A DNA stretch of 64,000 nucleotides from Siphonodentalium dalli. Lineage: Eukaryota > Mollusca > Scaphopoda > Gadilida > Siphonodentaliidae. Each line of letters opens with the position of its first letter. Positions within the stretch are counted from its first letter, which is position 1. Below the pieces are notes generated by a model. It worked only from the letters and a program-made list of their open reading frames with translations. It was not told where the DNA came from and did not search any database. Made by a program: the position numbers and the translations under genes. The DNA lies in assembly GCA_032622095.1 (NCBI GenBank), contig CP136061.1, forward strand, positions 8,008,734 to 8,072,733. Reading direction: 5' to 3'. Shown here piece after piece: positions 8,541 through 57,045 of the stretch.

Positions 8541-8774
8541 TGACAATTTCCATCACGTATACGGAATTCAAGGAAACATTACATGTTTTATTTGACTTTT
8601 GTCTTACAATTCATTCTGAATTATTCTGAGAAACTGAACAACATATAACATGTAAAGCGCATCTAAAAAAGACATATATCCTTGTCAATTCCAAGTAAAG
8701 CATGGTATACCGCACTTACAATATCATCTGGTAAATCCCGGTGTATTATCATTACATACACAACATTAACCAAT

Positions 8775-9061
8775 GTTTCTTACAATTGTTAGGACATAAA
8801 ACAAAACATCCATTACCCTGCAGGGAGCCCCACACATATATATAAGCACATAGAAGAGTGTCGTCTGCTCATGTTTGTCTGGGGCTCTGTATGGGTGAAA
8901 TTATAAAATTGCTAAAGAATACAAGAAAAAATTATTAAAATTGTAAAAAATTGTTAGGCCAATGCATTCTCTTATATATGCGAGGCGACCTATGGTCGAC
9001 TCGCATATATAAGAGAATGCATTGGCACAGGGTACGACTGGATTTGATATGGCGGGTCACA
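8775..9061. mobile_element. 5'-truncated copy of the TGTGACCCGCC hairpin MITE
   Basis: It matches the right two thirds of the element at 56311-56770: the CTGCAGGGAGCCCC block, an AT-rich linker, one full 69-bp hairpin (8958-9026), and the terminus GGCGGGTCACA ending at 9061, followed by TATA. The left terminus and left hairpin are missing. The usual AAATCCCGAC between hairpin and terminus is shortened. Confidence 0.85.
8958..9026. repeat. 69-bp hairpin module (family entry)
   Basis: Two 33-bp arms (GCCAATGCATTCTC to GCGAGGCGACC) pair with one mismatch around a 3-nt loop. Full 69-bp copies lie at 8958-9026, 12407-12475, 12554-12622, 47121-47189, 55453-55521, 56363-56431 and 56650-56718. A 59-bp copy with a deleted centre is at 42588-42646. 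Right half-arms alone are at 46868-46900 and 55347-55374. All copies are nearly identical. Confidence 0.95.
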
Positions 9062-9175
9062 TATATACAGCAGGGATGGTGCTAATAAGGTCTTAGTTTT
9101 CAGATTGATTGGACTCCACCTTGCAGAGTTGTTTCCATTTTGGATTTGGTTGTAATGTGTTTTGTAGGTTCAGCG

Positions 9176-12194: not shown

Positions 12195-12380
12195 TACACA
12201 ACATTGTATAATGCCATTTTAATTATCCATGTGTATATTTATAAAACATTTAGGAATAAAATGGTTGTATAATTACAGGATGTGCATATAACTTTTAGTT
12301 GCAAAACTCGGGGGAGGGAGTGGGAGGTGGGGGATTGGATTACAAACAAAATTACCTTTTATTTCTGGGTATCCAGTTAA

Positions 12381-12757
12381 CCCTTTACCCAACAGAAGGG
12401 CCCTGTGCCAATGCATTCTCTTATATATGCGAGTCGACCATAGGTCGCCTCGCATATATAAGAGAATGCATTGGCTTAACACATTAAAAATTATAAAATT
12501 GTTAAAATTGTAACAAAAAATGGTAAAAAGTGTTAAAAAAAGATTTTTTTTAGGCCAATGCATTCTCTTATATATGCGAGGCGACCTATGGTCGACTCGC
12601 ATATATAAGAGAATGCATTGGCACAGGGTATAACTGTAACCATCACAATGTGGTCAATGAGCCGATTCCAATGATATCCATATTTGTATGGTTTTATTGA
12701 GACAGACCGAAGATATTTTAGGCTGTTGAAGCTTTATTTGGCCGGTTGGGTAAAGGG
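12381..12757. mobile_element. piggyBac-like MITE carrying the hairpin pair
   Basis: TTAA (12377-12380 and 12758-12761) flanks perfect termini CCCTTTACCCAAC and GTTGGGTAAAGGG. Inside is the module 12401-12628: CCCTGTGCC, hairpin, AT-rich linker, hairpin, GGCACAGGG. About 130 bp of unrelated sequence follows to the right end. At 377 bp with no coding capacity it is a MITE. A damaged sister copy is at 55339-55674. Confidence 0.8.
12401..12628. repeat. Two-hairpin module, CCCTGTGCC...GGCACAGGG
   Basis: Two 69-bp hairpins (12407 and 12554) are separated by a 78-bp A/T linker, and the module is bounded by its own inverted ends CCCTGTGCC/GGCACAGGG. The same bounded module, with a different, longer linker, lies in the TA-flanked element at 56357-56724 and partly at 46857-47195. 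That suggests it moves, or is exchanged, as a unit. Confidence 0.75.
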
Positions 12758-12914
12758 TTAAAGATAGAGATGCAAGTAAAATTTCACTCCAGTTGGAAAT
12801 GTGAAACCAGTAAAAAATTGGGACACAAGGGTTAATATAACATAGATGTCAGGACATGACATTATCAACACCAATCATATTCACTTACCTATAGAGTTAC
12901 TGCGCGTTGATTAT

Positions 12915-13139: not shown

Positions 13140-13188
13140 AGCTTTGATTTTTATTTATTTTTAATTGTAATGCATTCCACTCTTGCAG

Positions 13189-13710
13189 ACTGGAGTGATG
13201 TCGGATGATTTTAGTGGTCGCCCAGCAACCAGCGGTATCGATCAACTTTTGAGACTTCAGGTTGGCACAGACACCTATAGAGGGAACCCGTTACTAGGGT
13301 CAGCTATATTAGGATCCGATGGAATCGGCCGTGGATTAGGACGCGGTCGTGGATTAGGACTCGGTCGTGGGTTGGGAGGCGGTTTACTGACCGGTGGCTT
13401 GGGCGGTAGATTAGGCGGCGGATTAAACGGCGGCATAGGCGGTGGATTCGGCCGTTTACCAGGCGGCGGCATAGGCGGCGGAATAATCGGTGGAATAGGT
13501 GGATTAGGCGGCAGATTAAACGGCGGCATAGGCGGTGGATTCGACCGCTTACCAGGCGGCGGCATAGGCGGCAGAATAATCGGTGGAATCGGTGGATTAG
13601 GCGGCAGATTAAACGGCCGCATAGGCGGTGGATTCGACCGCTTACCAGGCGGCGGCATAGGCGGCGGAATAATTGGTAGAATCGGTGGATTAGGCGGCCG
13701 TTGGTCATAA
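13189..13710 (+). CDS. Glycine-rich protein, probable last exon
   Basis: The open frame of 173 codons plus stop follows a good splice acceptor (ATTCCACTCTTGCAG, ending 13188) and reads in phase 0, matching the phase-0 donor at 5087. The first 35 residues are not repetitive (TGVMSDDFSGRPATSG, then GIDQLLRLQVGTDTYRG). A GRGLGRG tract comes next, and then three 31-residue (93-bp) repeats built on GGRLNGGIGGGFDRLPGGG with GGIIGGIGG. The frame ends with GGRWS and TAA. There is no signal peptide here, which favours joining to the secreted exon at 4791. No AATAAA follows; a weak TATAAA variant is near 13752. The sequence resembles silk-like or shell-matrix Gly-rich proteins, but repeat bias makes homology claims unsafe. 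Confidence 0.6.
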   Translation, partial: TGVMSDDFSGRPATSGIDQLLRLQVGTDTYRGNPLLGSAILGSDGIGRGLGRGRGLGLGRGLGGGLLTGGLGGRLGGGLNGGIGGGFGRLPGGGIGGGIIGGIGGLGGRLNGGIGGGFDRLPGGGIGGRIIGGIGGLGGRLNGRIGGGFDRLPGGGIGGGIIGRIGGLGGRWS

Positions 13711-14643: not shown

Positions 14644-17600
14644 ATTACGCCACATGGTGGTGTATCTAGTTTCGGTGATTTTGATATTGTGTGGTGGACA
14701 GGACGAATGTATTCTTGGATATTATTTTTTGTACCTTACTCAATTGTACCAATAGAATCACGTATATGCTGAAATTGTAAAGTTAACGGCACCGGTGTAT
14801 AATATGTTTTTGAAAATATGATAAATCGTATCCATAGGGTCAGGACAGGCTGAAATTGTAAACTTAAAGTCACCGGTGTAATAATATGTTGTTGAAAATA
14901 TAAATAATCTGATAGCCTGAAAATAATATATCACCCATTGGGAGCCCCTGGTGTATTCTTGGATATTTTTATTTGTACCTTACTCAATCGTACCGATAGA
15001 ATCACGTAGATGCTTAAATTGTAAAGTTAACGTCACCGGTGTATAATATGTTTTTGAAAATGTGATAAATCGTATCGATAGAGTCAGGACAGGCTGAAAT
15101 TGTAAACTTAAAGTCACTTGTTGTTGAAAATATAAATAATTTGATAGACTGAAAATAATGTGTAACCCATTGGGAACCCCAGGTGTAGTGAAGTGAATTG
15201 TGGGTAGTTTCATTGTGATTCTCCGCCATCTTTATTTTCTGGAATTATCACCAAGATTTCTCCACTCGATTCTCTTAAAATGCACCCGAATCGGTCAAAT
15301 TCTTTTGATAATTCTATCTAAATACATCTTAGCTACTATTCGGATCTGCTGTCCCGGTCGAAAAGGGTTTAGTTTGACCAAAATGGCAATTGACAAAAGG
15401 CTGTTTACAAAAATGCGTCTACTCGATGACCCGTCCACGGTCCACGCTGTAGTGTAAATTTATTATCGAAAACAAATTCAATTTCTTCCATCTAAAACAT
15501 AATTATGCGCTGAACTCTGTCATTTAAAAAAAAAGAAGAATATATACGTATTACACACATACACACCAAATTTCAGCTCAAAGTTTTGAAAAATGACAGT
15601 TTTATAGACATAAATCGATTTAAATGGGAAATCCTGTGTTAAATTTTATCATCGAAAAAAAATCATTTCTTCGATCTAAAAAATAATTACGTGCTGTACC
15701 CTGTCATTTTAGGAATATATAAGTATCCCACGCACACACCAAGTGTGAGCTAAAAATTTTTAAAAATAAGAGATTTATCGACATAAATCGATTTGTATAT
15801 GGCAGATGCAAATTGCCTTGTTAAATAAATTTTAGGGCCCTGCAAATGTTTTCTGAGCTGTTCCATATTGGGCACTAGAGTCCATATTTGACCGTTATAT
15901 CTGATAATTGTGCGACAGTACAGTCGCGTTACTTTATACGTCAACATTGATCATTATCACCCGACAAATTTATTTCGGCCTATCGTATCAACCCCTATTT
16001 TCTCACGCGTAGCTTGACTAAGTGTCAACATTGGTCTTTATCGCTCCACTAATTTGTATCGTTTCATCGGTATGAATTCCATATCCATCTATCCACATAT
16101 AACCAACCGAACCTCTAATCCCGGTCCAATTTATTTAATTTTTTATCGCTATAGTCACGTTACTTAATATTTTATCGCGTGATACTTGTACTTATATGTC
16201 TATGGTATTGCTATAGTATACCGTATACATATATCAATTGCTATTCCTTTCTATATAATCCTGGTGCCATCTATAGAGATAGAGATAATTTCATACCCCC
16301 CAATTTTATGTCATTGCTGCTTTAGTACAGTCGCGATACATTACATGGCAACATCGCTCCACTAATTTATGTCAGTTTATCGGTACGAACCCCTTTTTCT
16401 CCGAGTCCATATAACGTACCAACCCAACATCTTATAGAAGTCCATAAATGACTATTCTGGCACTATATAGAGATGACTAAGAATCTGACACCCCCTATTT
16501 TATAGCCTTGTTGCAATGTTCAGTAGAGTTGAGATGCATAATATGTCAACATTGGTCATTATCGCTCTATAAATTTGTATCGGTTCAACCCTTAGTTCCC
16601 TGTATCGCCCACCCCTCCCTGAATTTATTTTTTCATTTGTATTATAGTCTCGATCGTTACGTACACATTTTATCTCTTGTAACTTTTGCTTCAACGCGTC
16701 GAGTTCCGCTGCAGAGAATACAAAACTGACAACATTTTGAAATGTAAGCAGGCTTCAAACTCATCTTATCCAAGAAAAACTCTGGTTACATACGAAATTT
16801 GTGTATAAGGTGTACGCGCATTTGTTTCGTTAAAAACCAAAGGTCCCAAGTCAAGGTCCAAATCCCCAACACACTGTTGTGAGGTTTAACTCCATCTACA
16901 TACAGTAATGTCCAAAGTAATTGATCACTTAACCACAGCAAAATTATGGGTATTTTTTCATGATTTTAAATCCTGAAAAATTACCCATAATTATTATTTC
17001 AATGATATTTTCATTACATGGGATCCAAAACCCGACTTACGGGAGCGTGCTTCGCGCGCGACTGTATCTTAAGCATATGTGCATATTTAATAGGCCAACA
17101 ATTGGAATCCCAACAGAGAAGATTGGCGTGGGTCCCTTGTGCGAGCTGTCCATCGAAAACTATTTAGACATCTCAAGACACGTTAGACCCAATAAATTAA
17201 TATACAGAATAGATACATCTATTGCCTGAGTGACTAATATTTATATTTGTTACAATGAGGTCAAATAGTTGCGAAGCCAGCACCACAATTCTTTCCCTCC
17301 AATATTAAAACAACTTCTAAAGAATTATTAATTTACCTTATATTTGGTATGGAGCGTCCTTGGTTTACTGGAGTTCAGATTTGTTAACATCACGTCACCA
17401 AGTTAATTACTTGCGAAGCCACAGCCATAACTATTTCCCTCCATAGTAATTCTCAAAACAACTTCTTAAGAACAATTGACCAGGTCAGTCGCGCAATTAT
17501 TGGAAGAGCCACGGTCAATCATTTTTTAAAAACCAAATGTTACATTTAAATTATTGCTTTATGTAACCAAAACAAAAATTAAATGAGAAAATTAAGTTTT

Positions 17601-17861
17601 ACTACTTGCTAAATTTTATCTTTTAATTATTTCATTTAAATTTTAGTATTTACAGTATACTAAGTCCAAGTCTTTATAATCTGTTGAGTGACCCCACATT
17701 CGTTTACTTGCTTTGTTAGTAATAATTTGAAGGTTTACTTGTTTAAACGCAATTGGTATCAAAATATTTTATGTATTTTTTATAATTTATATTTATATGT
17801 AATACTATAATCTTGGTGGCGTTACCATTTCTGACTATGGTTTTCTTGTTATTATTACGCC
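14644..17861 (-). mobile_element. Long repeat element, copy 1 (3.2 kb)
   Basis: It is bounded by TTATTACGCCAC followed by a small hairpin at 14644, and by GGTTTTCTTGTTA at 17861. It matches most of 27143-33957 in inverted orientation. The left end contains two tandem copies of a subunit of about 240 bp (14711 and 14952). No transposase is visible. Orientation is set so that the ACAAGAAAACC end is 5' and the hairpin end (GTGG, CGTAATAA) is 3', which resembles Helitron-like ends but lacks the canonical CTRR. A 36-residue CLYLT...VYN frame and an 89-residue frame recur in copies. Confidence 0.65.
16960..17229 (+). other. Open frame conserved between element copies
   Basis: An 89-codon frame has a counterpart at 30841-31110 (minus) in the inverted copy. 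From ISMIFSL to the common end LIYRIDTSIA the two proteins stay alignable, and both indels between them are 6 nt, so the frame is kept. It has no known domain and no strong start. It may be an exon fragment of the element or simply conserved repeat DNA. Confidence 0.25.
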
Positions 17862-18485
17862 ACCTAGTGTGGTGTTACTTGCATTTGGTTTTTTGATATC
17901 ACATGGAGTACAGGGCGAATGTATTCTTGGAGATTGTTTGTACCTTACTCAATCGTACCGATATAATCACGTAGATGCCGAAATTGTAAAGTTAACGCCA
18001 GCGGTGTATAATACGTTTATGAAAATATGATAAATCCTATCGATAGAGTCAGGACAGGCTCAAATTGTAAACTTAAAGTCACCGGTGTAATAATATGTTG
18101 TTGAAAATATAAATAATCTGATAGCCTGAAAATATTGTATAACCTATTGGGAGCCCATAATAAATGGGAATAACCTATTGGGAGCCCCTGCTGTATTTTA
18201 TGGAGATTGTTTGTACCTTACTGAATCGTACCGATATAATCACGTAGATGCCGAAGTTGTAAAGTTAACGCCACTGGTGTATAATATGTTTATGATAAAT
18301 CGTATCGATAGAGTGAGGACAGGCTCAAATTGTAAACTTAAAGTCGAAAATATAAATAATCTGATAGCCTGAAAACATTGTATAACCTGTTGGGAGCCCC
18401 TGGTCTAGTGAACTGAATTATGGGTAATTTTAATTGGAGTGCGCATGTCTGTTTTTTTTATAGTAACGGCCATCTTTTATTTTCT
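17862..18485 (-). mobile_element. Long repeat element, copy 2, partial
   Basis: It begins with TTATTACGCCACCTAGTG directly after the end of copy 1, so the two are joined head to tail. It holds the doubled subterminal subunit of about 250 bp. Over about 180 bp (18195-18375) it is identical to the complement of 33410-33595. Similarity stops just after the TTTATTTTCTG near 18485. Confidence 0.75.
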
Positions 18486-26940: not shown

Positions 26941-27749
26941 GGGTACGTTCATACGCTGGCAATATTGCACTGCAAACTGCAAAAATGCCAGCTGCAAAGG
27001 TTGTTTTGTTTTGTTTTGTTAGCTGGCATTTTTGCCAGCAAACGTCAAGCTCGTGCTGTGTCGTGGCTGGTCGTCAACAATCAACGGTGATATATGATAA
27101 CGGCGTATACCTCTCTGTCGGTGGGCACAACACAAGGCCACTAACAACAAGAAAACCATAGTCAGAAATGGTAACGCCACCAAGATTATAGTATTACATA
27201 TAAATAGAAATTATAAAAAATACATAAAATATTTTGATAACAATTGCGTTTAAACAAGTAATCCTTCAAATTATTACTAACAAAGGAAGTAAATGACTGT
27301 GGGGTCACTCAACAGATTATAAAGACTTGCAGTCAGATGCTCGTAGCCCGTTTATATATAACCATGGGTATATGTCAGATATAACCGTACAAAAAAACGC
27401 CGTTCTTTTCACCGTGTATTTATCCATGGTGTGCGTGCCTGTGGTTGTCCGTAACATGGTGCCCGGTGTTATTGCTTTGAAAGGTAATCATGTTCGACTG
27501 GTGTTGTCAGATTGGTAAGATGAGATTAGCGGTTTCTATGTCTTGTCTGGTCACATTTACTGTTTGAACTTTGTCTGAAATAGACGCACTTTTTATACTA
27601 GAATTTGCGCAACAGGAGCGCAGGGAAATCGCACGTCGAGTTGGTTTAAGGGTTTTTAGAAAGTATTTATATGATATAGACAGAGACGTGGCGACAGGGG
27701 TAAAGGTTGGGATGTCTCACCCCCCCCCCAACTTTGGTCAAAATGTTCA

Positions 27750-29420
27750 ACAGTTGGAAATTTCATACCTGCCAAAACATTAGTTGGAAATTTCACACCA
27801 ACATTAAGTAGAAAATGTTCTTGTAGTTTGATTTTCAAACAAATTATTTGCATATTTTCCTATTTTTGGTAAATATTTTGGACTGAAATGGTCATCAGTC
27901 GGAAATTTCCAACTTTAGGAGGGTGATAGGTTGGAAATTTCCAACACTTGGGACAGTTTGTGTCCTGGTCCCTCCCTCGTGGCCAGTCAAAAAAATGCTA
28001 GTTAATTTAAGAAAACAATATTGTCATGCATTTGGTAAATATTGTCATTGGAATTGTCATCAGTTGAAATTGTCCAACCTAAGTGGGGGTGTCAGGTTTG
28101 AAATGTCCAACTCTAGGAAGGTCTGAGGCTAGTCTAGATGCTAGGATTTTGAGATTTTCTTGTTCAGATTAGAAAACAATTGCCGACTATCTTTGTCATT
28201 GTCCATTCCCCCGTGGCCAATACAAAACTGCAAAACAATATTTTACTTCATTTGGTCAAACTTGTGGACTTAAATAGTCATCAGTTGGAGAGTTTTTCAA
28301 CCTGAGGGGGAGTATGAGGTTTGAAATGTCCAACACCAGGAAAGGTTCAATTGAGGTCAGTCTGGATGCATGCTAGGATTTAATATTTTCTTTTATAGTT
28401 TTAAAATTTTTCTCACACCGGGCCGAAGAACCATGGTCAACCCGGTGTGTCCCCGCCTCTTGTCCGTTGCCGTGGGAATTTGTCTGGAGTTAGACCATTA
28501 GATGTTATGATTTATGCAATTGTTCAGGTTAAACTATCTGAATTTTCAAACCTGGAATATAGGTTTTTTTTAAATATATATAGGATATTAGGCGTGAGCA
28601 CTGATGTAAGGGGGATGGTGCAAATGGATTTTGTGTTTGGGGTGATTCTGATTCAAGGGGGTGCAGTTGGAATTTCCCATGGTGGACACCCCCTAACGGA
28701 AACCATATAGCCACGTCCCTGGATATAGAGAGGCAAACAGAACGATACCATATATATACAATATGCGGTTGCATCTAATTTGGATTTATTGTGATGTCTT
28801 TAGTGCACTTTTGTGGTTACGAGAGCTCATTTCCCCCTGATTTCTGTTCAATATGTGGTCTTCTTCTTTAAAAGTTTTATATGATTTCAAACAGGGGTGG
28901 CACCAGGATATCCCCGACGGGGGGGGGGGGGGGCTTTAGCTGGCGGGTTGACAATTACATAACTCACCGACGGGGGATGGCTATGACTCCCCGACAGGAC
29001 TGGGATGTAGCCCCTGACCCCCCCCCCCCCCCGTGCCACCCAACATAACTTAGTATCGATTATTTAGAATAGGGTGTCAAGTAGGGACTTGTCGACAGGG
29101 GTGGTTATGCAGGGGTCTTACCACCAATTGTAGTCATACCTAATACCCCGAGCAAAATTAATTGGAAAATTCACACCAAAATTAGGTTGAAATTGTTCTC
29201 GTAGTTTGATTTTCCAACACTTTCTTAGTGACGAATTCGTTGTTGTTAGACCAACATTTGCATATTTCCCTTTCATTTGCAAAATTATGGACTCAAATGG
29301 CCATCAGTTGGCAATTTTGAAACCTATGGGTGAGCGTCAGGTTAATAATTTCCCAGAATTGGAAAACTTGAGGCCGGTCTATGCTATAGGATTGTCAAAT
29401 GTTCATGTTCATATTTCAAA
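27750..29420. repeat. Diverged internal repeat, unit about 150-230 bp
   Basis: At least four copies (near 27780-27960, 27990-28150, 28220-28390 and 29160-29420) share, in order: CATTTGGTAAAT, GGACTSAAATGGTCATCAGTTGG, GGTTTGAAATGTCCAAC and GATGCTAGGAT. Hairpins on CACACCGGG/CCCGGTGTG (28413-28450) and a weaker one near 29432-29462 punctuate the copies. Confidence 0.7.
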
Positions 29421-29623
29421 AATGTTCTCACATCGGGCCTAACCATCGGCCGACCCGTGTGTTTCTATGTGCTTGCCAGTAGTTACTCGCTAATTAATTT
29501 AAGAAAAAATAGATCGGGGTGTAAATTTGTGTGGTGTTATACCACTAGATGTTAAGATGTTTTAATCTCATACTGGGCCGAACCATCTTTTTCACCCCCC
29601 CCCCCCGCACGACAAGTGGCCAC

Positions 29624-29900
29624 AGTATCAGTATCAGTATCATTTATTTCGAAACAAGTCATCCGACTTTTTGTTCCGATTTGAAACATGGATATAAATT
29701 ATAACGTAATCATAAACACAATATGTTAAAATCACTCATCGTACTCATATTTCTGGCTATAGAAATATGAGTCAAACAGTTCTTTGAACTGCGTCAGGTT
29801 GACGGATGAAACAATCATCTCTGGTAAATTGTTCCATGGTATAACAACTCCCTGTTTCATTTGGAATAGTCTACCATCTGGTAGTCTGTGAGGGAACATT
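29624..29900 (-). pseudogene. CR1-like LINE 3' end
   Basis: On the minus strand the last codons read QGVVIPWNNLPEMIVSS then NLTQFKELFDSYF, the conserved WN.LP...V......FK end of CR1/L2-type ORF2. The short 3' UTR carries AAAGTCGGATGACTTGTTTC and closes with an ATACTG microsatellite (29624-29645), the tail type of this clade. It is 5'-truncated at about 29900. A related tail is at 52620-52700. Confidence 0.75.
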
Positions 29901-31149
29901 TGGGAAAAATCAAGGGGGGTGCAAATTGATTTACGCAAACTTATGAGTTTGGTGTGGTTCAATGGGGTGAGGTGCAGTTGGAAATTCCAAGGTGGAGACC
30001 ACCCCAACGAAAACCCTCTAACCAAGTCTCGAGTGCCAAATATCCCACACTCAACCAGGGGTGCCTCTCGCAACTTTAGTTTCTGCCTTCCGCATAGGCT
30101 TACTTGTTTCTTATCCGATAATACACTTCACCGGCGGCAATGTATTAACCATACTCTGAAATAAAACGCTTCCGTGACGATCACACGATAAAGTCGTGCT
30201 GCAAGTAAGACGATAATTGTATTGTAGAAATGATACGGAAGACCGATTGTCAAAAAATTCAACATCAAAATACACAGGGCAAGACTTATCGATCCAAACT
30301 GTGGAGTGTGTTTTCGTTGTGTATTTTCGCATATACCCATAGTTATATATAAACGGGCTACGAGCATCTGACTGTTGGACTGTAAATACTGGGAATGTAT
30401 ATTTTTAAATTTTAGTCTAAAATTTAAATGAAATAATTAAAAGATAAAATTTAGCAAGTAGTAAAAGTTAATTTTCTCATTTAATTTTTTTTTTTTGGTT
30501 AAATAAAGGAATAATTTAAATGTAAAATTTGGTTTAAAAAAATGATTGACCGTGGCTCTTCCAATAATTGCGCGACTGACCTGGTCAATTGTTCTTAAGA
30601 AGTTGTTTTGAGAATTACTATGGAGGGAAATAGTTATGGCTGTGGCTTCGCAAGTAATTGACTTGGTGACGTGATGTTAACAAATCTGAACTCCAGTAAA
30701 CCAAGGACGCTCCATACCAAATATAAGGTAAATAAATAATTCTTTAGAAGTTGTTTTAATATTTACTATGGAGGGAAAGAATTGTGGTGCTGGCTTCGCA
30801 ACTATTTGACCCCATTGTAACAAATATAAATATTAGTCACTCAGGCAATAGATGTATCTATTCTGTATATTAAGTTATTGGGTCTTACGTGTCTTGAGAT
30901 GTCTAAATATGTTTTGATGGACAGATCGCGCAAGCGCAAGGGACCCCCGACAATCTTATTTGTTGTGATTCCAATTGTTGACAATATGCACATATACTTA
31001 AGAAACAGTCGCGCGCAAAGCGCGCTCCCGTAGGTCGGTGTTTGGATCCCATTTAATGAAAATATCATTGAAATAATCGGTTTCCCCCCAATAAACATCC
31101 ATATATTCAATATACATGTTTTTGGAGCAGAATTAGGTAGACCATATTG

Positions 31150-31570
31150 AACGCCATAATTCTGCTGTGGTTAAGTGGTCAATTACTTTGGACATTACTG
31201 TATGTAGATGGAGTTATCATTAGACCTCACATCCTTATATGGGATACAGTAATGCCCAAAGTAATTGACCACTTAACCACAGCAGAATTATGGGTAATTT
31301 TTCAGGATTTAAAATCCGGAAAAATTACCCACAATTCTGCTGTGGTTAAATGGTCAATTACTTTGGACATTACTGTATGTGGATGGAGTTATCATTAGAC
31401 CTCACATCCTTATATGGGCTACAGTAATGCCTAAAGTAATTGACAAATTAACCACAGCAGAATTATGGGTAATTTTTCAGGATTTAAAATCTTGAAAAAT
31501 TACCCATAATTCTGCTGTGGTTAAGTGGTCAATTACTTTGGACATTACTGTATGTAGATGGAGTTAAGCC
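31150..31570. repeat. Cluster of five alternately inverted units
   Basis: The unit CAGTAATGTCCAAAGTAATT, followed by GACCACTTAACCACAGCAGA and ATTATGGGTAATTTTTC, occurs in the order minus, plus, minus, plus, minus. Centres such as GGGTAATTTTTCAGGATTTA form near-perfect hairpins. Copy 1 of the host element (16900-16990) has only about one and a half such units, so the cluster expanded in this copy. Confidence 0.9.
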
Positions 31571-34500
31571 TCACATCAGTTTGTTGGGGATTTGGACCTT
31601 GACTTGGGACCTTTGGTTTTTAACGCAACAAATGCGAGTACACCTTATACACAAATTTCTGATGTAGCCAGAGTTTTTATTGGATAATATGAGTTTGAAG
31701 CCTGCTTACATTTCAAAATGTTTTCAGTTTTGTATTGTCTGCAGCAGCTAGAACTCGGCGCGTTGAAGCAAAAGTTATAAAAGAAAAATGTGTACGTAAC
31801 GAGACTATAATACAAATGAAAAAATAAATTGAGGGGGGGTGGGCATTACAGGGAACTAAGGGTTGAACCGATATACATATGTAGAGCGATAACGACCAAT
31901 GTTGACATATTATGCATCTCAACTCTACTGTTGCAACAAGGTTATAAAATAGGGGGGGGGGGGGTGTCAGAATATTAGTCATCTCTATATAGTGCCAGAA
32001 TAGTCATTTATGGACTTCTATAGTGGTACAATACAAATTAGAATCAAATGATAAAAATATGTATGTAACACAACTATACCGATGAAAATAAAAATAATAA
32101 TTTAAGCCGGGATAAGATGTTGGGTTGGTTATATGGACTCGGAGAAAAAGGGGTTCGTACCGATGAACTGACATAAATTAGTGGAGCGATGTTGCCATGT
32201 AATGCATCGCGAATGTACTAAAGCAGCAATGATATAAAATTAGGGGGGGGGGGTGTCAGAAATTATCTGTATCTCTATAGATGACACCAGAATTTTATAG
32301 AAAGGAATAGCAATTGATATACGTATACGGTATACTATAGTAATACCATAGACATATAAGTACAAGTATCACGCAATAAAATATTTCGTAACGTGACTAT
32401 ATTGATGAAAAAAATTAATAAATTGGACTGGGATTAGAGATTGGGTTGGTTATATGTGGATAATTGGATATGGAATTCATACCGATGAAATGATACAAAT
32501 TAGTGGAGCGATAAAGACCAATGTTGACACTTAGTCAGGCTACACGGGGGAAATAGGGGTTGATACGATAGACCGAAATAAATTTGTCGAGTGATAATGA
32601 CCAATTTTGACGTATAAAGTAACGCGACTGTACTGTTGCACAATTATCATGTAGAACCAGTCAAATATGGACTCTGGTGCCAATATGGAACATCTCAGAA
32701 AACATTTGAAGGGCCCTAAAATTTATTTAACATGGGATCTGCCATACAAATCGATTTATGTTGATAAATCTCTTATTTTTCAAAATTTTAAGCTCAGACT
32801 TGGTGTGTCTGAGTGGGATACGTATATATTCCTAAAATGATAGGATACAGCACATAATTATGTTTTAGGTGGAAGAAATGAATTTTTTTCGATGGTAAAA
32901 TTTAACATGGGATCTGCCATACAAATCGATTTATGTTGATAAATCTCTTATTTTTCAAAATTTTAAGCTGAGACTTGGTGTGTCTGAGTGGGATACGTAT
33001 ATATTCCTAAAATGATAGGATACAGCACATAATTATGTTTTAGGTGAAAGAAATGAATTTTTTTCGATGATAAAATTTACGGGTTTATCGAGTACGCTAT
33101 TTTATAAACAAACTTTTGTCAAAAGCCGTTTTGGTCAAACTAAACCTGTTTCGACCGGGAAAGCAGATCCGAATAGTAGCTAAGATGTATTTAGATAGAA
33201 TTATCAAAAGAATTTGACCGATCAGGGTGCATTTTAAAAGAATCGAGTGTAGAAATCTTGGTGACATCGCCGATATTTCCAGAAGATAAAAGATGGCGGT
33301 TATCACAATAGAACAGGCATAATATTACCCATAATTCACCTCCCTACACCAGGGGGGCTTACCCATAATTCACCTCACTATACCAGGAGGCTCCCAATGG
33401 GTTATATATTATTTTCAGGCTATCAGATTATTTATATTTTCGACTTTAAGTTTACAATTTGAGCCTGTCCTCACTCTATCGATACGATTTATCATAAACA
33501 TATTATACACCAGTGGCGTTAACTTTACAACTTCGGCATCTACGTGATTATATCGGTACGATTCAGTAAGGTACAAACAATCTCCATAAAATACCCACAA
33601 TTCAGTTCACTACATGCAGGGGCTCCCAATAGGTTATTCCCATTTATTATGGGCTCCCAATAGGTTATACAATATTTTCAGGCTATCAGATTATTTATAT
33701 TTTCAACAACATATTATTACACCGGTGACTTTAAGTTTACAATTTGAGCCTGTCCTGACTCTATCGATAGGATTTATCATATTTTCATAAACGTATTATA
33801 CACCGCTGCCGTTAACTTTACAATTTCGGCATCTACGTCATTATATCGGTACGATTCAGTAAGGTACAAACAATCTCCAAGAATACATTCGCCCTGTACT
33901 CCATGCGATATAAAAAAACCAAATGCTAGAAACACCACACTAGGTGGCGTAATAATTGATTGTATCTGTACCGTCCCCGATACGATCGGATAGGATCGGG
34001 GTGTGTTCTCTGTGATTCTCATACACACATAATTATACATGTGTACTGATATGTTATATGAGGATATGATGATATGGCGTGATACAAAGAGTACCAAAAG
34101 TGATGCTTCCCGAGTCATAAATGTGGGAGCTATATGGGGGAGGTGGTGGCAGGACTCACTGTGAGTATCCATGCATTGCTTCAAATGTGCTTACTTCAGT
34201 GAGCGTGTACAAATTCTCAATTGTTATCGAAATTGTCATCTATCGATCAGAATGGCACATTGAGATATCACTCAATTCAGATCAAGCTGGGGCTCGAATA
34301 CGTGCCAACACCATCTACCAAGACTGCGATATCGATGTAATTGTAGTGGGTTAAAAGTGACTGATTGTGTCGTGGTGGTGTGAGACTGTGAGTGGGGTCT
34401 AACAGTAGGGATAATGAGATGTTAGTCTTTGGCATTGATAAAGCATATATGGGCCTATATAATTATTCATGCCATTTGAATAACAATATATTGTGTGCTT

Positions 34501-35003: not shown

Positions 35004-37652
35004 TTAACGATCGTGGTCACATATACACACTCTGTTAAATGCGTTACAATACACAAATGGCTGTTATAGAGATGCCAATATACTATTTGATAATACTATA
35101 TATAAAGACGAACATAAATTCATGGCATAATCATTGTATTTATGTTCTCGTTGTATATTCGGTATTTTAATTAAGTGTATGTCATGTCATTCGTTCTCTT
35201 ATTCCATATTCATTGTAGTATTACTGTGTTATTCCAGTCTATTTCCGTTGGTTGAATCCATGTTTATTTGTTTATATTCCCAGTTTCGTCTGATAGTTGT
35301 CGTTAAAACATTATCATGCAATAAAGATTTCTTTAATTATATTCTATTACTAACTTCATTGTTTACCCATGTTTATTGATAATGAATTGAATGTGTTATT
35401 CGGTCCAGGAACCTTCGTTGTCAAACAATTAATCTGGTCACGCATCAATTATGTTCGCAATCCAAAACCAAAACATCGGGATATATGTAACGGATAAATA
35501 CATTTTCAAACACCCTGTCCCATCATCAGTCAATAATCATAAAGTATGGTTAGGTACTCAAGTCCCAAAAACTAATTGGTCACATATATATTAACTATAT
35601 ATAGCAGGTTATATAGTGAATTGTGAACATAATATGGTTCCTGTGGCTGGATATTCATTTAGTTTGGTTATGTTTAACATTATATATTACAAAATTTTAT
35701 ATAAACTGGATATTCCGTTTATTGAATACTTTTGCAGACAAAAATGATATATACAAGGAAATAAACCAACTTAAAGTTGAATAGAAGAAAAAATTACAAC
35801 AAAAAGAGGCTTGTTGTGTCGTCAAAGAGGGGGGTATACACAAAAAAATCCGTATATAGGGCCGGGGTGGGTGGGTGGTCCAGAGGCGGAAAAAATCGTG
35901 CTTGTAATTTTTTTCTATATAGCCTCAGATTTAGCAACATTCTGGATTTCACAGGATCGCGGACCACTTCACAGTGGACCACCGTAATAGCGTTCAGGAA
36001 ACTTATTATCAGCGGAAGAAATATTTAGTAACACAATTAATATATTACCCAGTTGTATTACTTGAATAAAAGTAATAAAACATATAAACTGTATCACAAA
36101 CTGTATCACAAATTGGATACTACATGGTGAATACTCAATGATGACTATATATCATTAACATGATTGTTGCATAACATGAAATTGAAAAGGGTATCTCATA
36201 AATTTCTAATGTCTGAAATACTGTATTGTCCTGGCATGTAATCAAATTCATTCCTTCTGGTTATTTCTCATCTTGAATGATTGGAAGTAATGTTAATTTG
36301 CAACAATTATCCAAATAAAACTGAATTGGTCATGATGAATAGCCGTTAACTGTTTACTGCTCAGACAATCCCAACTGAAGGTGACGCTATTCTCATTGAA
36401 TTTCCGAACTTCATCTTGGAGCTTTACTGCTCAACAAGACTAAACTAAAATACTAAATGTATACTGTTATCACTTACAAATAGATGAACTGAAATAATTT
36501 TTGGGGTGGTGGGTCCCTCTGGTCGGATTTTTTTTTTTGGTGTGCAATCCCCCCCCCCGCCCGGCTGGCCCAACCAATTTTCGTGGCTGCTTATCTAGCT
36601 AAGCCGGCTTAGTCACGACGTTTGTGGCTGACGAAATATGGCGGCTCAGTCGGCTGAGATATCAGACTGAGTCGTGTCGAAATAAACGATTTCGCCATCG
36701 GCAGTCACTGCATTTAATTAGTATATAAGAATGACGGTGTGTGTTGTCAATTTAGATATAACATTTGTAAAAATAACTACTTTGAACAAGATTATTCTCC
36801 ACTTCTATTCGATCACCTTACCGGAGTGTTTCACATCAGTAGTTTATTCTAACCTCCCTTTGGGAGAGTCTAAATTACAATGCGTATTTATATAACATAT
36901 GGACAGTTCAACTCAAGCAGTGGCGATATTGCGATTTATTCATTTATCAAACTTTGGTTTATTTTAGCCTATAATTATACATGTATATGATACATCAACC
37001 AGAATGACCCTTTTTCTTATTCCCTATAATAATATTGATATATAAAGGTCATATAATTACTTATTATTTTAATCATTTATGTCTTGTGATAGTTATTCCG
37101 TGAAAAACATATTAATTAGCCTGTCACAAGTGAAGTAGTCTACTTTTGAGCCGATGTATACCGATTCGCCTCGGCAATATTCGGGGATCTTATAGCAACG
37201 GAAGAATTATACTCTTGCGCTTCCATCAGTTCCATTAACTGTGAAGGCATACACTACTAACTAGTCCTAAAACTAATTGTGATAATCGGCAAGTGAAAGA
37301 AAGAATTCAGCCAAATTTCCGATTTTGGAATCAAATGTTGACTATATGTAGGCGTTACCATTTATGTCACAATTCCAGTTTTAAAAGTCAATGTATGCGT
37401 TACCATTTCAAAACTCTGAAACATGCTTCGAAAATTGGTGACGGAAACCACCTGAACGCGATAATCTGTACAACCGTTACATATATATCTCGGTATAGAT
37501 GACTGTGAGATAGCAAACAATGTTTTACAGCTCATAAACAATGATTTTTTTAGTGGTTTATGAACATAGTTTGCAAAAACGATAAATACTCACTTTTCGG
37601 TGAAAAACTTTGTTTTATGACGTAGGTTCCAGGCCCTGACCATATAAGCACA
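35004..37652. other. Gene-free, mostly single-copy stretch
   Basis: No gene is supported across about 2.6 kb. A dispersed repeat at about 36757-36840 (GTAAAAATAACTACTTTGA, then ACCGGAGTGYTTCAC) recurs at 43088-43172. Poly-T and poly-C runs lie near 36529-36560. Confidence 0.5.
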
Positions 37653-37715
37653 TCCTGCTTATAATGTGTACGACCTGCTTATAATGTGTACGACCTGCTT
37701 ATAATGTGTATGACC
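37653..37715. repeat. 21-bp tandem repeat, 3 copies
   Basis: CCTGCTTATAATGTGTACGA starts at 37653, 37674 and 37695. Confidence 0.95.
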
Positions 37716-37767
37716 TGAATATTCATATGTGTGAGGATAACTGTGGCGGTGCTGATATAAAGCACAT

Positions 37768-40700: not shown

Positions 40701-41660
40701 TAGGTCATCACTACATGAGATGAATAGTCCATCACTACATGAGATGAATAGGTCATCACTACATGAGATGCATAGTCCATCACTACATGAGATGAATAGT
40801 CCATCACTACATGAGATGAATAGTCCATCACTACATGAGATGAACAGTCCATCACTACATGAGATGAATAGTCCATCACTACATGAGATGAATAGTCCAT
40901 CACTACATGAGATGAACAGTCCATCACTAAATGAGATGCATAGTCCATCACTACATGAGATGCATAGTCCATCACTACATGGGATGAATAGTCCATCACT
41001 ACATGAGATGAATAGTCCATCACTACATGAGATAATAGTCCATCACTACATGAGATGAACAGTCCATCACTAAATGAGATGCATAGTCCATCACTACATG
41101 AGATGAATAGGTCATCACTACATGAGATGAATAGGTCATCACTACATGAGATGAATAGTCCATCACTACATGAGATGAATAGGTCATCACTACATGAGAT
41201 GAATAGGTCATCACTACATGAGATGAATAGGTCATCACTACATGAGATGAATAGGTCATCACTACATGAGATGAATAGGTCATCACTACATGAGATGAAT
41301 AGGTCATCACTACATGAGATGAATAGGTCATCACTACATGAGATGAATAGTCAATCACTACATGAGATGAATAGGTCATCACTACATGAGATGAATAGGT
41401 CATCACTACATGAGATGAATAGGTCATCACTACATGAGATGAATAGGTCATCACTACATGAGATGAATAGGTCATCACTACATGAGATGAATAGGTCATC
41501 ACTACATGAGATGAATAGGTCATCACTACATGAGATGAATAGTCCATCACTACATGAGATGAATAGGTCATCACTACATGAGATGAATAGTCCATCACTA
41601 CATGAGATGAATAGTCCATCACTACATGAGATGAATAATCCATCACTACATGAGATTCCT
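37768..41660. repeat. 3.9-kb minisatellite of a 24-bp unit, about 162 copies
   Basis: The unit encodes MNSPSLHE on the plus strand and SSHVVMDY on the minus strand. Because 24 is a multiple of 3 and the unit has few stop words, frames of 1096 (plus) and 1114 (minus) codons arise. Variants fall at fixed sites: AAT/AAC/CAT, AGT/AGG, CCA/CAA/TCA, ATG/ATA. Most change the residue, and a 1-nt deletion at about 41033 breaks every frame. Both facts argue against a constrained protein. From 41160 to 41560 a homogeneous AGGTCA variant has expanded; earlier parts show multi-unit higher-order patterns. Confidence 0.95.
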
Positions 41661-44490
41661 ACCTGGTAAAATGAGAAGAGTGTTAGTTGCGGCATCACTT
41701 TGTTCAAAAATTCTGCCTAAACAAAATAACAAGTCTTGGGAAATTTGATACCATATATAGTTGACAGTGGTTAGCATTTTTGTTGCAATAAATCGAATGT
41801 GATAACTAAAGCGCATTTTGAAGAAATAATTGCGCTTAATAAATATTTATTCTTTTGACATTTTTATTGTTCTATGATATGCATGCATGCTGGTCTTCAG
41901 ATAGCATATATTCCTTTATGTGGTGTACTAGCCTTACAATTAAGTTGTTTTCTGTGTATGCCAATCGAAACTTTCAACATTCGAAATAGTCAATGCCAGG
42001 AAACCCCTCAAATCAGACAATGTGTTGGTGAGTCTTCTGTTAAACATGTTCTATATATCAATAATCACATCTAGTTAAGTTATCCTCATAATTTGCTATG
42101 ATGTTGGGTGGGCGGGGGTTTTGCTAATTTTATATGGTGCGGGTAGGACAAACTGAAGCTGTAAAGTATCGTTATTTGTTCTAAATTTGTCATATTCGTG
42201 GTCTTTTGTTATTCTGCGGAATGAATAAAAGAAAAGTCGCGATACATGTATCTCATCCAAAACATATATTGTAAAATATTTTAATAATGAATGTGTCAGT
42301 TTTTGCAAACCGACTATACTTGAGACATCTGTTCCTGTGGTTTTGCAAACACCGGTTCAGTAATTATTAAAATATTTATGTTATGTTTCATACAGACACT
42401 AGCTTTTTTTTTTTATAAAATCGCTTGGATTAACGCAAATAAAACCTTTAGAAATAAAATAAAGGTACTGTTTCTTGACGGCATCAGTTTGCCCTACCAG
42501 CTTCATATCAATTCAACATGACCCACAGTATAATCGTCGCAATTTAGTACGAGAACTTATTAACAAAAAAAGAAAAGAAAACCTTGTGCCAATGCATGCA
42601 TTCTCTTATATATGCGAGTCGACCATATATAAGAGAATGCATTGGCCTAAAACAAATTCTATCATTTTTTAATTGTTAAAAATTTAAGAAAAATGAAAAA
42701 AATAATAAAAATAATGTTAAAGAATGTAAGAAATAATGATAAAAAATTATAAAAATTGTTAAAAAATGGAAGAAAATAAAAAAAAAATGTTAAAGAATGT
42801 AAGAAAAATGAAAGCTAATAATAGACAGCATCGCCAAGTTCCTAATTCCTAATCACGAACTTCATAATCTAGGTTACAATACACCAAATCATTTACATAA
42901 GCCTCGGTACTACCCTTGACATTGAGAAACAAATGACAACGAAAAAAGAAAAAACACCAACCCCTCCCATAAACTATTCGCCATTTAACAGCCGCAACCT
43001 TTCACCACGTGGCTATATTTGACGTTTCTCGCGGGAAACACGTGGTGTAAATGTCCTACTAATGTCGTGTCAGGCATGAAATTTTTGGATATGATATTTG
43101 TAAAAATAACTACTTTGAGCAAGATTAATCTCCATTTCTATTTGACCACCCTACCGGAGTGCTTCACGTCACTTTAACAGGCACACCATTGGTTTGTTAT
43201 GAATGTATTATTTTACAAGTATACATATAGTCTATAAATCTCCATTGCTTCAGCACTCACCTTATCACTTATACTTGGTCAATGATTGTGCGTACTGTGG
43301 AAAATTATGTCAGTTAAACTGCACCGGTTATGGTCTACTGGTGAAATAACTCTATGCATATAGCGTGTCAGTTTTATATATGTACGGTACCATTCCCCAC
43401 TAATCACTGATTCGAAATTCGAACAACGAGAACAATTTCAACCTATATGTGGTGTATAGTTTCCAACTAATGTTGTGTCAGGCATGACATTTCCAAATGT
43501 TGATAATTGTTTACCCCAAACCCATGCATATACATGTATAGGGTAGGTGAGTTTATTTCCACAGGTCGAATTCCGGTAAATTTGGTACACAGCGGACGTT
43601 GATTTGGAGATCCGATCGAAGCCGTAATGGAGATTTCCACATTTATGCATTAGTGGGAGGAGCTTACGGATGCTAGGATACAAGGTGTTTGAAGAAATAG
43701 TCATTTTTTAAAAACATTTTCAATAAAAAAATATTTTAAATATTTTAAATTTGTATTTAAAAAAAAAAAAAATGGTTCTTTTTAGACAACTTATTGCTCA
43801 GTTTAACAGTTAAACAATTAAAATGAAAAAAAAAAAATTAACGCCGTTATAACATCTGACAGGGTGACCCGAGGCACCACACCACATTTGGTTGAACTTT
43901 GTCCATATCTTACTCTTTAATAATATAGAATATATACATCGCAGAATATTCATTTTCACCATTAATTGTGGAAGTGAAAAACATTGTTATAACCATGGAT
44001 TAATGTCCAACGTCATGGGTCAAATATAAATTTCAGTACATTATGATTTGACATTAAACAATTTTTTTAAATATAGGCAATTAAACACTGAAAGTTTGCA
44101 CGGATATCAACATTAAGATGAAGAAAGATGCATTATAATGTGCATTGCAGCAAGCGACGAAAATATCTCCTAATAATGATTTGATTGACAGCTATAGAAA
44201 GATCAATTGTGGTTATATCCACATACCCTAGCACTCTGCATTTTAATAGAACTGGTGTAACAAAATCCCCATTCAGTTTTTCCTGGATACGCTAAACAGA
44301 AGGATGCAGCATTGACACCAATTGACGAATCTCAGATTATTGACAGGCAGCGGTAGCTGACCAATCGCGTTACGGCAAACGAAGTTCAAGGCCAAACACT
44401 TCCTAAACAAAAGAGCTTCCCGAGACCCGAGGATGCATTTACGCTCGTTTTAAGACTTAGTTTAGCACGATAGTAGAACTCCTGTCCGAG
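41661..44490. other. Gene-free stretch
   Basis: Apart from the degenerate hairpin at 42588-42646, A-rich GTTAAAGAATGTAAGAAA linkers near 42660-42810 that resemble MITE interiors, and the dispersed repeat at 43088-43172, nothing is recognised. Several short frames lack support. Confidence 0.5.
42588..42646. repeat. Degenerate lone copy of the 69-bp hairpin
   Basis: The hairpin here has lost part of its centre and right arm, and the left arm has a 4-bp CATG duplication. Upstream CCTTGTGCC and downstream TTGGCCTAA match the module edges. No TIR of either host family is nearby. Confidence 0.85.
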
Positions 44491-46811: not shown

Positions 46812-47340
46812 TGTGACCCGCCATATCAAATCCAGTCGGAAGTCGGGATTTTTTTACCCTGTACCCAGGTCGCCTCGCATATATAAGAGAATGCATTGGC
46901 ATAACAATTTTTTATCATTTTTTTAAAATAAATGTTTCTGACAATTTTTAGGACATAAAATAAAAAAAACATCCATTACCCTGCAGGGAGCCCCACACAT
47001 ATATAGAAGCATATAGAAGAGTGTCGTCTGCTCATGTTTGACTGGGGCTCTGTATGGGTGAAATCATAAAATTGTTAAAGAATACAAGAAAAAATTATTA
47101 AAATTGTAAAAAATAGTTAGGCCAATGCATTCTCTTATATATGCGTGGCGACCTATGGTCGACTCGCATATATAAGAGAATGCATTGGCACAGGGTAAAA
47201 GAAATCCCGACTTACGACTGGATTTGATATGGCGGGTCTATTAACCCATAGAGAGCCCCACACAGCCTGGAGCAGACGACACTATGTAGTGCATGCTTCC
47301 ATCTATGTGAGGCTCCCTGTGGGTGATATGGCGGGTCACA
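46812..47340. mobile_element. Hairpin MITE, TGTGACCCGCC family, composite copy
   Basis: Termini TGTGACCCGCCATATC and GATATGGCGGGTCACA are flanked by TA. The left hairpin is reduced to its right arm (46868-46900); the right one is complete (47121-47189). Beyond a second, internal terminus (GATATGGCGGGTC at about 47228) lie about 105 bp that resemble the CTGCAGGGAGCCCC block in reverse, so this copy is a fusion of two related elements or a tandem partial duplication. Confidence 0.85.
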
Positions 47341-49855: not shown

Positions 49856-50284
49856 AGTCCGAAATCATATCAGAACATTACATTGTTTCCCTTCTTTGCA
49901 ATAGTATTGTCGTCTATTTGCGGAGATCCCCGAATTCGCGGAGGTCCCCTAAAATTGTCGAAAATATGTTGATTTTAATTAGGGAACGGGTGCGTATATG
50001 TCAATTGATACGTATTTTAAACAAATAACGACACGATCATCATAATAGCAACCACCCCGGTGGGTGTTTATACCTAAGGCGTGTGTGAATGATGACGTCA
50101 TATAATTTTACTATATATATTTCTATACGATGGAACGATTTTCAGGAAAGAGTGTATGCTATTTAGCGAAATTGACACGTGACTTCCGATTAGCAACTGT
50201 TTAAAATTGCGGAAGTGGAACAACGAGATGAAATGCCACGGCTCATGACGTCATTTACGTCATGTTGGCTTCGTAGGTGCAACA
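49856..50284. other. Gene-free spacer between two arrays
   Basis: Nothing is recognised apart from TGACGTCA-type words near 50092 and 50248. Confidence 0.5.
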
Positions 50285-55338: not shown

Positions 55339-55674
55339 CAGAAGGGCCTCGCATATATAAGAGAATGCATTGGCTTAACACATTAAAATTATAAAATTGC
55401 TAAAGAATGTAAGAAAAAATGGTAAAAAGTGTTAAAAAAAGATTTTTTTTAGGCCAATGCATTCTCTTATATATGCGAGGCGACCTATGGTCGACTCGCA
55501 TATATAAGAGAATGCATTGGCACAGGGCATAACGGTAACTATCACAATGTGGTCAAGGAGCCGGTTCCAATGATATCCATATTTGTATGGTTCTATTGAG
55601 ACAGACCGAAGATATTTTAGGCTGTTGAAGCTTTATTTGGCCGGTTTTGGCCGGTTTGTTGGGTAAAGGGCTAA
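55339..55674. mobile_element. Damaged piggyBac-like hairpin MITE
   Basis: It matches 12381-12757: CAACAGAAGGGCC, a half hairpin (55347-55374), A/T linker, a full hairpin (55453-55521), the CATCACAATGTGGTCA-type right flank and GTTGGGTAAAGGGCTAA. The left terminus and left hairpin arm are lost, and GGCCGGTTT is doubled near the right end. Confidence 0.85.
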
Positions 55675-56014: not shown

Positions 56015-57045
56015 TGTTATATAATAGAAGAATGAGCCTATGTATATTTTGAATTGATCGAGTGTTGGAGCCTCAACAGCGAAGTCTGGCAGAGAGTTCC
56101 AGCTATTTACCACCACCTGCGTGAAGAAATATTTTCCTATGGCCTTTGTTAACAATGGGCATCTGTAGCTTTTTATTATGTCCTCTTGTTTTTCCTGATG
56201 AATGTCTTTCTAATAGGTCACAGGCATTGATATTGTAATGACCATTCAACAGTTTATATACCTCGATTACATGGATTAGATCTCCATAACAAAACTGGCA
56301 TACAACAATATGTGACCCGCCATATCAAATCCAGTCGTAAGTCGGGATTTGTTTTACCCTGTGCCAATGCATTCTCTTATATATGCGAGTCGACCATATG
56401 TCGCCTCGCATATATAAGAGAATGCATTGGCCTAACAATTTTTTATAATTTTTTTAAATAAATGTTTCTTACAATTTTTAGGACATAAAATAAAAAAACA
56501 TCCATTACCCTGCAGGGAGCCCCACACATATATAGAAGGATATAGCAGAGTGTCGTCTGCTCATGTTTGTCTGGGGCTCTGTATGGGTGAAATTATAAAA
56601 TTGTTAAAGAATACAAGAACAAATTATTAAAATTGTAAAAAATTGTTAGGCCAATGCATTCTCTTATATATGCGAGGCGACCTATGGTCGACTCGCATAT
56701 ATAAGAGAATGCATTGGCACAGGGTAAAAAAAATCCCGACTTACGACGGGATTTGATATGGCGGGTCACATATGATATTCGATATTTTAAAGACATCAGA
56801 TTGAGTCTTATCATTCGGTCTCGGAAGCATAGAGTTTTGATTTGACGAACTAGTTTCGTTGCTTTTCTTTGTATTTCTCTAACACAATGCTTTGATATTT
56901 GTGATGCGGGCTCCATGCAGAGTTACAGTATTCGATGATAGGTCTGACCATGCTTATGTAGAGCGACTAGAAAATGTCGACGTCCAAGTTAGTGAAAATT
57001 CTGTTGACTGTGCCGATGATTTGAGAAGCTTTATTGTTTTAGGAT
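56015..57045 (-). pseudogene. CR1-like LINE reverse transcriptase, C-terminal part, split by a MITE
   Basis: In minus-strand order the pieces are: SLYISMVRPIIEYCNSAWSP (from about 56970), RKATKLVRQIKTLCFRDRM then LNLMSLKYR (about 56880-56790), the MITE, GDLIHVIEVYKLLNG (about 56270), SSGKTRGHNKKL, and finally NSWNSLPDFAVEAPTLDQF (about 56080). These are the standard landmarks of the RT C-terminus of CR1/L2/Rex-type LINEs. At least two frameshifts and the insertion make it inactive. No microsatellite tail is evident below 56015. Confidence 0.85.
56311..56770. mobile_element. Complete hairpin MITE, TGTGACCCGCC family
   Basis: The 460-bp element has near-perfect inverted termini of about 50 bp (TGTGACCCGCCATATCAAAT with CCAGTCGTAAGTCGGGATTT) and TA on both sides. 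Inside is the module 56357-56724: hairpin (56363-56431), AT-rich linker with a CTGCAGGGAGCCCC block, hairpin (56650-56718). It interrupts a LINE coding region, which proves mobility. Confidence 0.9.

Follow-up and report, generated by a model that had tools for sequence, protein, structure and literature searches.

How do transposable elements with unrelated ends come to carry the same pair of hairpins? The question is raised by a 64,000-nt stretch of the genome of the scaphopod mollusc Siphonodentalium dalli (contig CP136061.1, positions 8,008,734 to 8,072,733 of the forward strand; hereafter the window), in which two MITE families, here called A and B, each enclose a pair of nearly identical 69-bp palindromes. 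An earlier, sequence-only reading had offered three solutions: a foldback transposon that inserted into both families, a sequence exchanged by gene conversion, and a functional RNA or cruciform kept by selection. As discussed below, the evidence favours selection on the copies that amplify, most simply on a putative subterminal cis-element. The explanation as a whole, in which several MITE families of non-autonomous DNA transposons have in common a module that acts in cis, could well be right, though we stop short of calling it probable.

The shared module and its hosts

The window holds seven full 69-bp hairpins, the number counted in the sequence-only reading, each running from GCC to GGC (Table 1). 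In five of them a 27-bp stem is followed by one mismatch and then by a 5-bp stem that closes a 3-nt loop, and the remaining two, those with a change, deviate near the tip only. Folding energies lie between -49.9 and -54.3 kcal/mol (z -11 to -14), and none of 200 shuffles equalled them. Half hairpins persist in the second copies of both families. As had been described, two hairpins flank a linker in A and in B and the module is bounded by CCCTGTGCC and GGCACAGGG, found at 12401 and 12620 in A and at 56357 and 56716 in B. Left and right hairpins are reverse complements of each other, and the module therefore amounts to a single inverted repeat with a palindrome in each arm.

Table 1. Copies of the two MITE families, their modules and their hairpins in the window
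Feature	Position	Strand	Remarks
Third B copy	8772..9064	+	left part missing, right flank shortened
Full hairpin	8958-9026	+	inside third B copy
MITE family A, full copy	12377..12761 (element proper 12381-12757)	+	TTAA both sides; ends CCCTTTACCCAAC.../...GTTGGGTAAAGGG
Shared module in A, 228 bp	12401..12628	+	bounds CCCTGTGCC and GGCACAGGG
Left hairpin of A	12407..12475	+	tip CGACC ATA GGTCG, T.C mismatch; fold
Linker of A	12476..12553	+	AT-rich; partly homologous to right linker of B and to D linker
Right hairpin of A	12554..12622	+	reverse complement of left hairpin; fold
Diverged, shortened single hairpin	42582..42650 (hairpin part 42593-42645)	+	one edge (CCTTGTGCC)
Second B copy	46812..47238	+	left hairpin half deleted (46874-46899 kept)
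Full hairpin	47121-47189	+	right hairpin of second B copy; 1 change
Second A copy	55346..55646	+	left hairpin half deleted (55348-55373 kept)
Full hairpin	55453-55521	+	right hairpin of second A copy
MITE family B, full copy	56311..56770	+	TGTGACCCGCCATATC...; long terminal inverted repeats
Shared module in B, 368 bp	56357..56724	+	same hairpins, longer linker
Left hairpin of B	56363..56431	+	1 change from consensus; fold
Right hairpin of B	56650..56718	+	fold

The two hosts belong to different kinds of MITE. TTAA flanks A on both sides in 61 of the 62 copies examined, in keeping with the target first proposed, and the A termini (CCCTTTACCCAAC and GTTGGGTAAAGGG) form an exact inverted repeat of 13 bp. 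These termini contain, in inverted orientation, the motif CC[C/T]T given for piggyBac-like MITEs in PMC2872659. The ends of B, TGTGACCCGCC, lack TTAA. For B the sequence-only reading had proposed TA targets; a 2-bp match, seen in 18 of 28 copies, hints at such a duplication, the shuffled mean being 12.8 and the shuffled maximum 18. In short TA-target MITEs of the Tc1/mariner kind the terminal inverted repeats are long and the targets AT-rich, in many cases TA; B resembles them in its long terminal inverted repeats and AT-rich target, though less clearly in its TA duplication.

Two hosts had been recognized at the outset, and that number proved too small. Families D and E, both TTAA elements, also carry the module. 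D, with CCCTTTGAGTGCCAGG... ends, has its right half only, in the two copies read through (L032:2446-2688 and L034). E, with CCCTTTCATGACGGG... ends, has the whole module in diverged copies with a short, different linker (L006, L013, L024 and L041; damaged copies in L022 and L047). When A, B, D and E were compared pairwise outside the module, the only common sequence was CCCTTT, six bases present in A, D and E, with no other sign of shared ancestry there, and the termini do differ as first described. The palindromes lie 26 and 135 bp from the element tips in A, 52 bp in B and about 46 bp in E.

The claim that linkers differ between hosts fared less uniformly. Scored against 2000 shuffles, the left parts of the A and B linkers do not resemble each other (z -0.9), as claimed, whereas the right linker of B matches that of A at z 9.1 (55-kb A copy) and z 5.6 (12-kb A copy), with no shuffle as high. 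The D and B linkers are likewise similar (z 9.2, 0 of 2000 shuffles as high), and A and D more weakly so (z 3.2, matched by 15 of 2000). Right linkers of A and B are thus homologous, and it is the entire module, rather than the hairpins alone, that the two families have in common. The alignable linker of A and B spans 53 bp and differs at about 20% of positions, while the consensus of both hairpins is identical in the two families, which upholds the near identity first reported.

Several further arrangements involve these elements. A long-linker form of A occurs in L088, L089, L098, L104, L106 and L127, with right hairpins 0 to 2 bases off consensus. The B linker includes an extra 80 bp or so, a relative of which (about 76%) is inserted at 47241-47319; it forms part of an insert at 47236-47345, with ends TTAACCCATAGAG.../...CCCTGTGGG, which stands at the right end of a B copy; after it, about 20 bp of the B terminus recur. 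A tandem array at 50268-52539, with a 37-bp period and about 60 copies of the E left terminus (TTAACCCTTTCATGACGGGAGCTGCGCTGGTGCAGCA), is a satellite built from a transposon end. In L080 a B element is inserted within an E-type hairpin, at a TATATA run, and the two elements can therefore be ordered in time.

Other features of the window include a long 24-bp tandem repeat (37650-41716) in which each strand has an open frame exceeding 1000 codons, and many inverted matches of 85-98% between 14724-18398 and 27142-33956; these two regions are separated by 9-19 kb and may derive from an ancient inverted duplication. There is also a glycine-rich open frame at 13171-13710, which we take to resemble mollusc shell-matrix proteins.

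Copy number and the question of independent movement

Copies were counted by sequence patterns across the 2.2-Gb genome (nine contigs). The exact 20-base module edge GAGAATGCATTGGCACAGGG occurs 152,002 times, and its reversed control not at all. With at most two edges per element, this corresponds to at least about 76,000 elements. The edge is joined to the A right end at 43,844 places, to the A left end at 41,520 and to the B end (spacer 3-10) at 18,966, leaving about 48,000 edges outside these patterns, though the A and B patterns start slightly inward, by a few bases, of the one used for the total and do not split it exactly. In 20 spaced 10-kb stretches of the genome, hairpins were present in 6, at 18 places, partial ones included. 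On contig C1, at 735748-779435 and 831192-920842, edges recur every ~14,558 bp and ~11,175 bp, respectively, suggesting long tandem units. A search for relatives in phages, viral contigs (arm plus B end) and bacterial and archaeal genomes found none, as expected for an animal-like genome.

The identity of the hosts was sampled in several ways. In 20 stretches picked among the first 100 edges listed (17 with one edge and 3 longer, spanning C1 1.06-5.24 Mb and skipping the first megabase, where evenly spaced repeats abound), the host was B in 7, A in 6, E in 3 and D in 2, and a known host was absent from 2; two B pairs, the host-less pair (L114 = L124) and two E stretches are probably duplicates of the same loci. 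Among the best 40 of a ranked search, twenty B-type modules were picked; they had B on both sides in 15 cases, on one side in 2 and on neither in 2, and one had an A fragment on one side. Nineteen modules picked for an edge followed by AAAAT gave B on both sides in 12 (including one whose tip is shortened and another with a gap of one base), on one side in 3 (L072, L076 and L078) and on neither in 4 (L074, L075, L077 and L081); near duplicates are included in this set (L069/L079, L074/L075 and L083/L084), and L077 was read in part. Finally, A right ends with an odd edge occur at 520 places, and all 20 of those picked had a module or its remnant, so that no module-less A family was found among the 20 read.

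Foldback elements have long inverted repeats able to fold back, and the module might be, or have been, an independent transposon of this general sort, with CCCTGTGCC ends, that inserted once in each host, after which the host transposase multiplied the nested product. We consider this origin somewhat improbable, although the identical, sharp edges in four hosts speak for it. TA adjoins both edges in B and one edge in some E and D copies, but there is no TA to the left of the module in A. Three of the four host-less copies read on both sides (L032:6946, L055 and L081) have TA on each side, as a 2-bp target duplication would leave, and other edges without a known host occur in L060, L074 = L075, L077 and L114 = L124. 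Yet the TA repeat lies within a T tract and an A tract that are also present in B, nothing is duplicated beyond the tracts, and L081 and L049 retain further B bases, so these host-less copies may be eroded B copies. L060 has no TA repeat but, at a greater distance from its edges, a longer direct repeat (23 shared 14-mers).

The frequency of such copies points the same way. The option had been raised in the sequence-only reading, and it fits few of the 20 stretches picked: 18 lie inside A, B, D or E, and the two that do not represent one duplicated locus. Unlike foldback elements, moreover, the palindromes here are carried within other elements, and no clear target duplication of their own was found. 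That said, the edges are the same in every host, which leaves room for independent movement of the module in the past.

Constancy of the hairpins

The history of the copies can be read by separating private changes, found in one copy, from inherited variants, shared by two or more, in 33 copies of A and 20 of B. Private changes in A affect 15 of 4422 cells in the hairpins, 17 of 2633 in the linker, 21 of 3530 in the right host part and 4 of 660 in the left (42 of 6823 outside the hairpins). Inherited variants are distributed quite differently: none in 134 hairpin columns, against 6 of 80 in the linker, 8 of 107 in the right host part and 1 of 20 in the left (15 of 207 in all). Compared by columns, this contrast gives p 0.0006 overall in a set of non-independent copies of one family, drawn mostly from the best 40 of 360 candidates (B: of 347) ranked by module similarity and thus biased to conserved modules, and p 0.002 for hairpin against linker alone, the linker lying within the same query and being the sole control for that ranking bias. 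Family B follows with private changes in 25 of 2610 hairpin, 50 of 4370 linker and 19 of 1533 host cells, and inherited variants in 4 of 134 hairpin, 14 of 220 linker and 5 of 79 host columns (19 of 299 outside the hairpins; p 0.17, not significant alone); A and B together give p 0.0008. Hairpins of A are accordingly less diverged than their host (0.0034 against about 0.016 per site), which answers the question of relative divergence raised at the outset.

Because private rates differ mildly and inherited variants are nearly absent from the hairpins, most of the difference lies in amplifying lineages. Private changes are also somewhat rarer in the hairpins (pooled A + B ratio 0.65, p 0.02), and some of the conservation may therefore postdate insertion. 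The effect is mild, and continuing gene conversion, as the sequence-only reading had envisaged, is unneeded as the main cause. Nor did any A or B copy examined have matched changes on both arms, which gives no sign of arm-templated correction for recent changes.

Comparison of old and young hairpins extends this picture. The young hairpins of A, B and D have the tip CGACC-ATA-GGTCG and those of E the tip CTCCC-ATA-GGGAG, with an identical mismatch and loop; two compensatory pairs distinguish them. Pairing has thus been retained across a genuine change of sequence. At 214 hairpin places in the DNA examined (the duplicate of the window, L001, left out), 170 tips are young, 12 are of E type and 32 are unclassified. 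Pairs 5/73, 30/41 and 31/40 have changed on both sides (13 hairpins, 12 distinct), and the covariation score is 0.105; the shuffles gave 0.060, with none of 500 reaching the observed score, and slid controls never exceeded 0.044. Pairs with a double change (3) are no more numerous than in shuffles, 344 of 500 of which reach 3, and since the rows are related they represent at most three events. A genome pattern without G at the second tip position matches 5454 places, and among the 72 tips read there, 35 are of the paired E type, 26 are young tips with G-to-A at CpG and 11 are other single-step forms, with no third paired tip among them.

These data bear on the possibility that recombination, or template switching in gap repair, carried a functionless module from family to family, helped by high copy number and palindrome breaks, its hairpins being constant simply because the founders are recent. 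Copies that such exchange could have produced do exist, among them the chimeric L068, with an A right-end fragment to the left of a B-type module, the single-hairpin A copy L117, the half hairpins at 46874 and 55348, and D with its half module. Against this, the module edges coincide instead of scattering, the linker and host of the very A copies whose hairpins have no inherited variants do bear them, and the two-pair change of the tip preserves pairing. On balance we regard a passive spread as unlikely.

Selection, the last of the options first raised, is the best supported, as selection on source copies: A hairpins have no inherited variants and pairing is kept, findings that apply alike to a DNA and an RNA target. 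If the target were RNA, the hairpin would be kept through transcription into a double-stranded or microRNA-like product. The RNA fold is very stable and the changes on both sides preserve pairing, but symmetric protein binding accounts for the same pairing changes, and no Rfam match reaches the gathering score in the window, a result that says little about a new RNA. An RNA role seems to us very improbable.

A putative cis-acting part and its known counterparts

The reading that best accommodates these observations is that of a cis-acting part. A, B, D and E have identical edges but unrelated outer sequence, and the module behaves like a functional part and not a passenger, being kept in source copies, kept palindromic and subterminal. 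We infer that it descends from the old TTAA family E and that the founders of A, B and D acquired a derived form of it with an altered tip, by whatever route and however often, D taking half only. In the likeliest case, a two-fold symmetric protein would recognize the palindromes and help to pair or cut the element ends; for the TTAA hosts the obvious model, by analogy, would be a piggyBac transposase whose cysteine-rich domain dimer sits on subterminal palindromes. Selection would then act through transposition: copies with damaged palindromes would fail as source copies, inserted copies would mutate nearly freely, and the hairpin would remain constant along active lineages.

Piggybac-type transposase genes are present in the genome, with 128 PF13843 match rows, many without stops and some representing two parts of one gene. 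In a search for an autonomous element with A ends, the 100 odd A edges listed (of 520) were compared with the listed PF13843 matches, and none had such a match on its contig at a distance of 300 kb or less. Two features sit less easily with a cis-acting part: D spreads with one hairpin, and B is not a TTAA element, so that one transposase cannot simply serve all hosts. The latter leads to a stronger version, in which the palindrome pair would be a portable transposition enhancer, independent of the outer ends, and both TTAA and non-TTAA families would have become hugely abundant after acquiring it. This we think quite doubtful.

Why some MITE families multiply enormously while others stay modest in number has long been asked. 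Here one discrete DNA module, with its exact edges in six-figure number in one genome, is a factor common to four families. It allows a clean test, in which the same MITE with and without palindromes is compared for each candidate transposase, and would further demonstrate that cis-acting parts of transposons can move from one family to another whose ends differ.

Among papers on MITEs with palindromes, hairpins or shared cores, judged by title and abstract opening, none described anything closer than the CMITEs of Acropora corals; a search by exact sequence strings gave nothing relevant by title. According to the available part of that description (Wang et al. 2010, PMC2872659), several TTAA MITE families that differ in their piggyBac-like ends have a common internal core of 75 bases, better conserved from family to family than the ends are, of unknown origin and estimated at about 1,600 copies in A. 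millepora. The authors suggest a role for the core in transposition, and describe tandem arrays and nested new elements. The likeness lies in a core that is more conserved between families than are the ends. The differences, drawn from description only, are that the coral families are all TTAA elements, whereas B has TGTGACCCGCC ends; that the coral core is not described there as a palindrome pair, whereas here two 69-bp palindromes stand in inverted order; and that 152,002 edges compare with some 1,600 copies.

The piggyBac transposon itself provides a second comparison. In piggyBac and piggyBat (PMC11707139), both of which target TTAA, transposase dimers bind subterminal palindromes: piggyBac has identical 19-bp palindromes in both ends, bound via cysteine-rich domains of the transposase, and piggyBat has a different palindrome, in its left end. 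Those palindromes measure about 14-19 bp; the ones described here measure 69 bp, with a conserved mismatch and loop, and their binding by protein is putative. What is new relative to the CMITEs, as they are described, is the palindrome pair, the abundance, the compensatory changes, the comparison of private with inherited variants, and a host outside the TTAA class.
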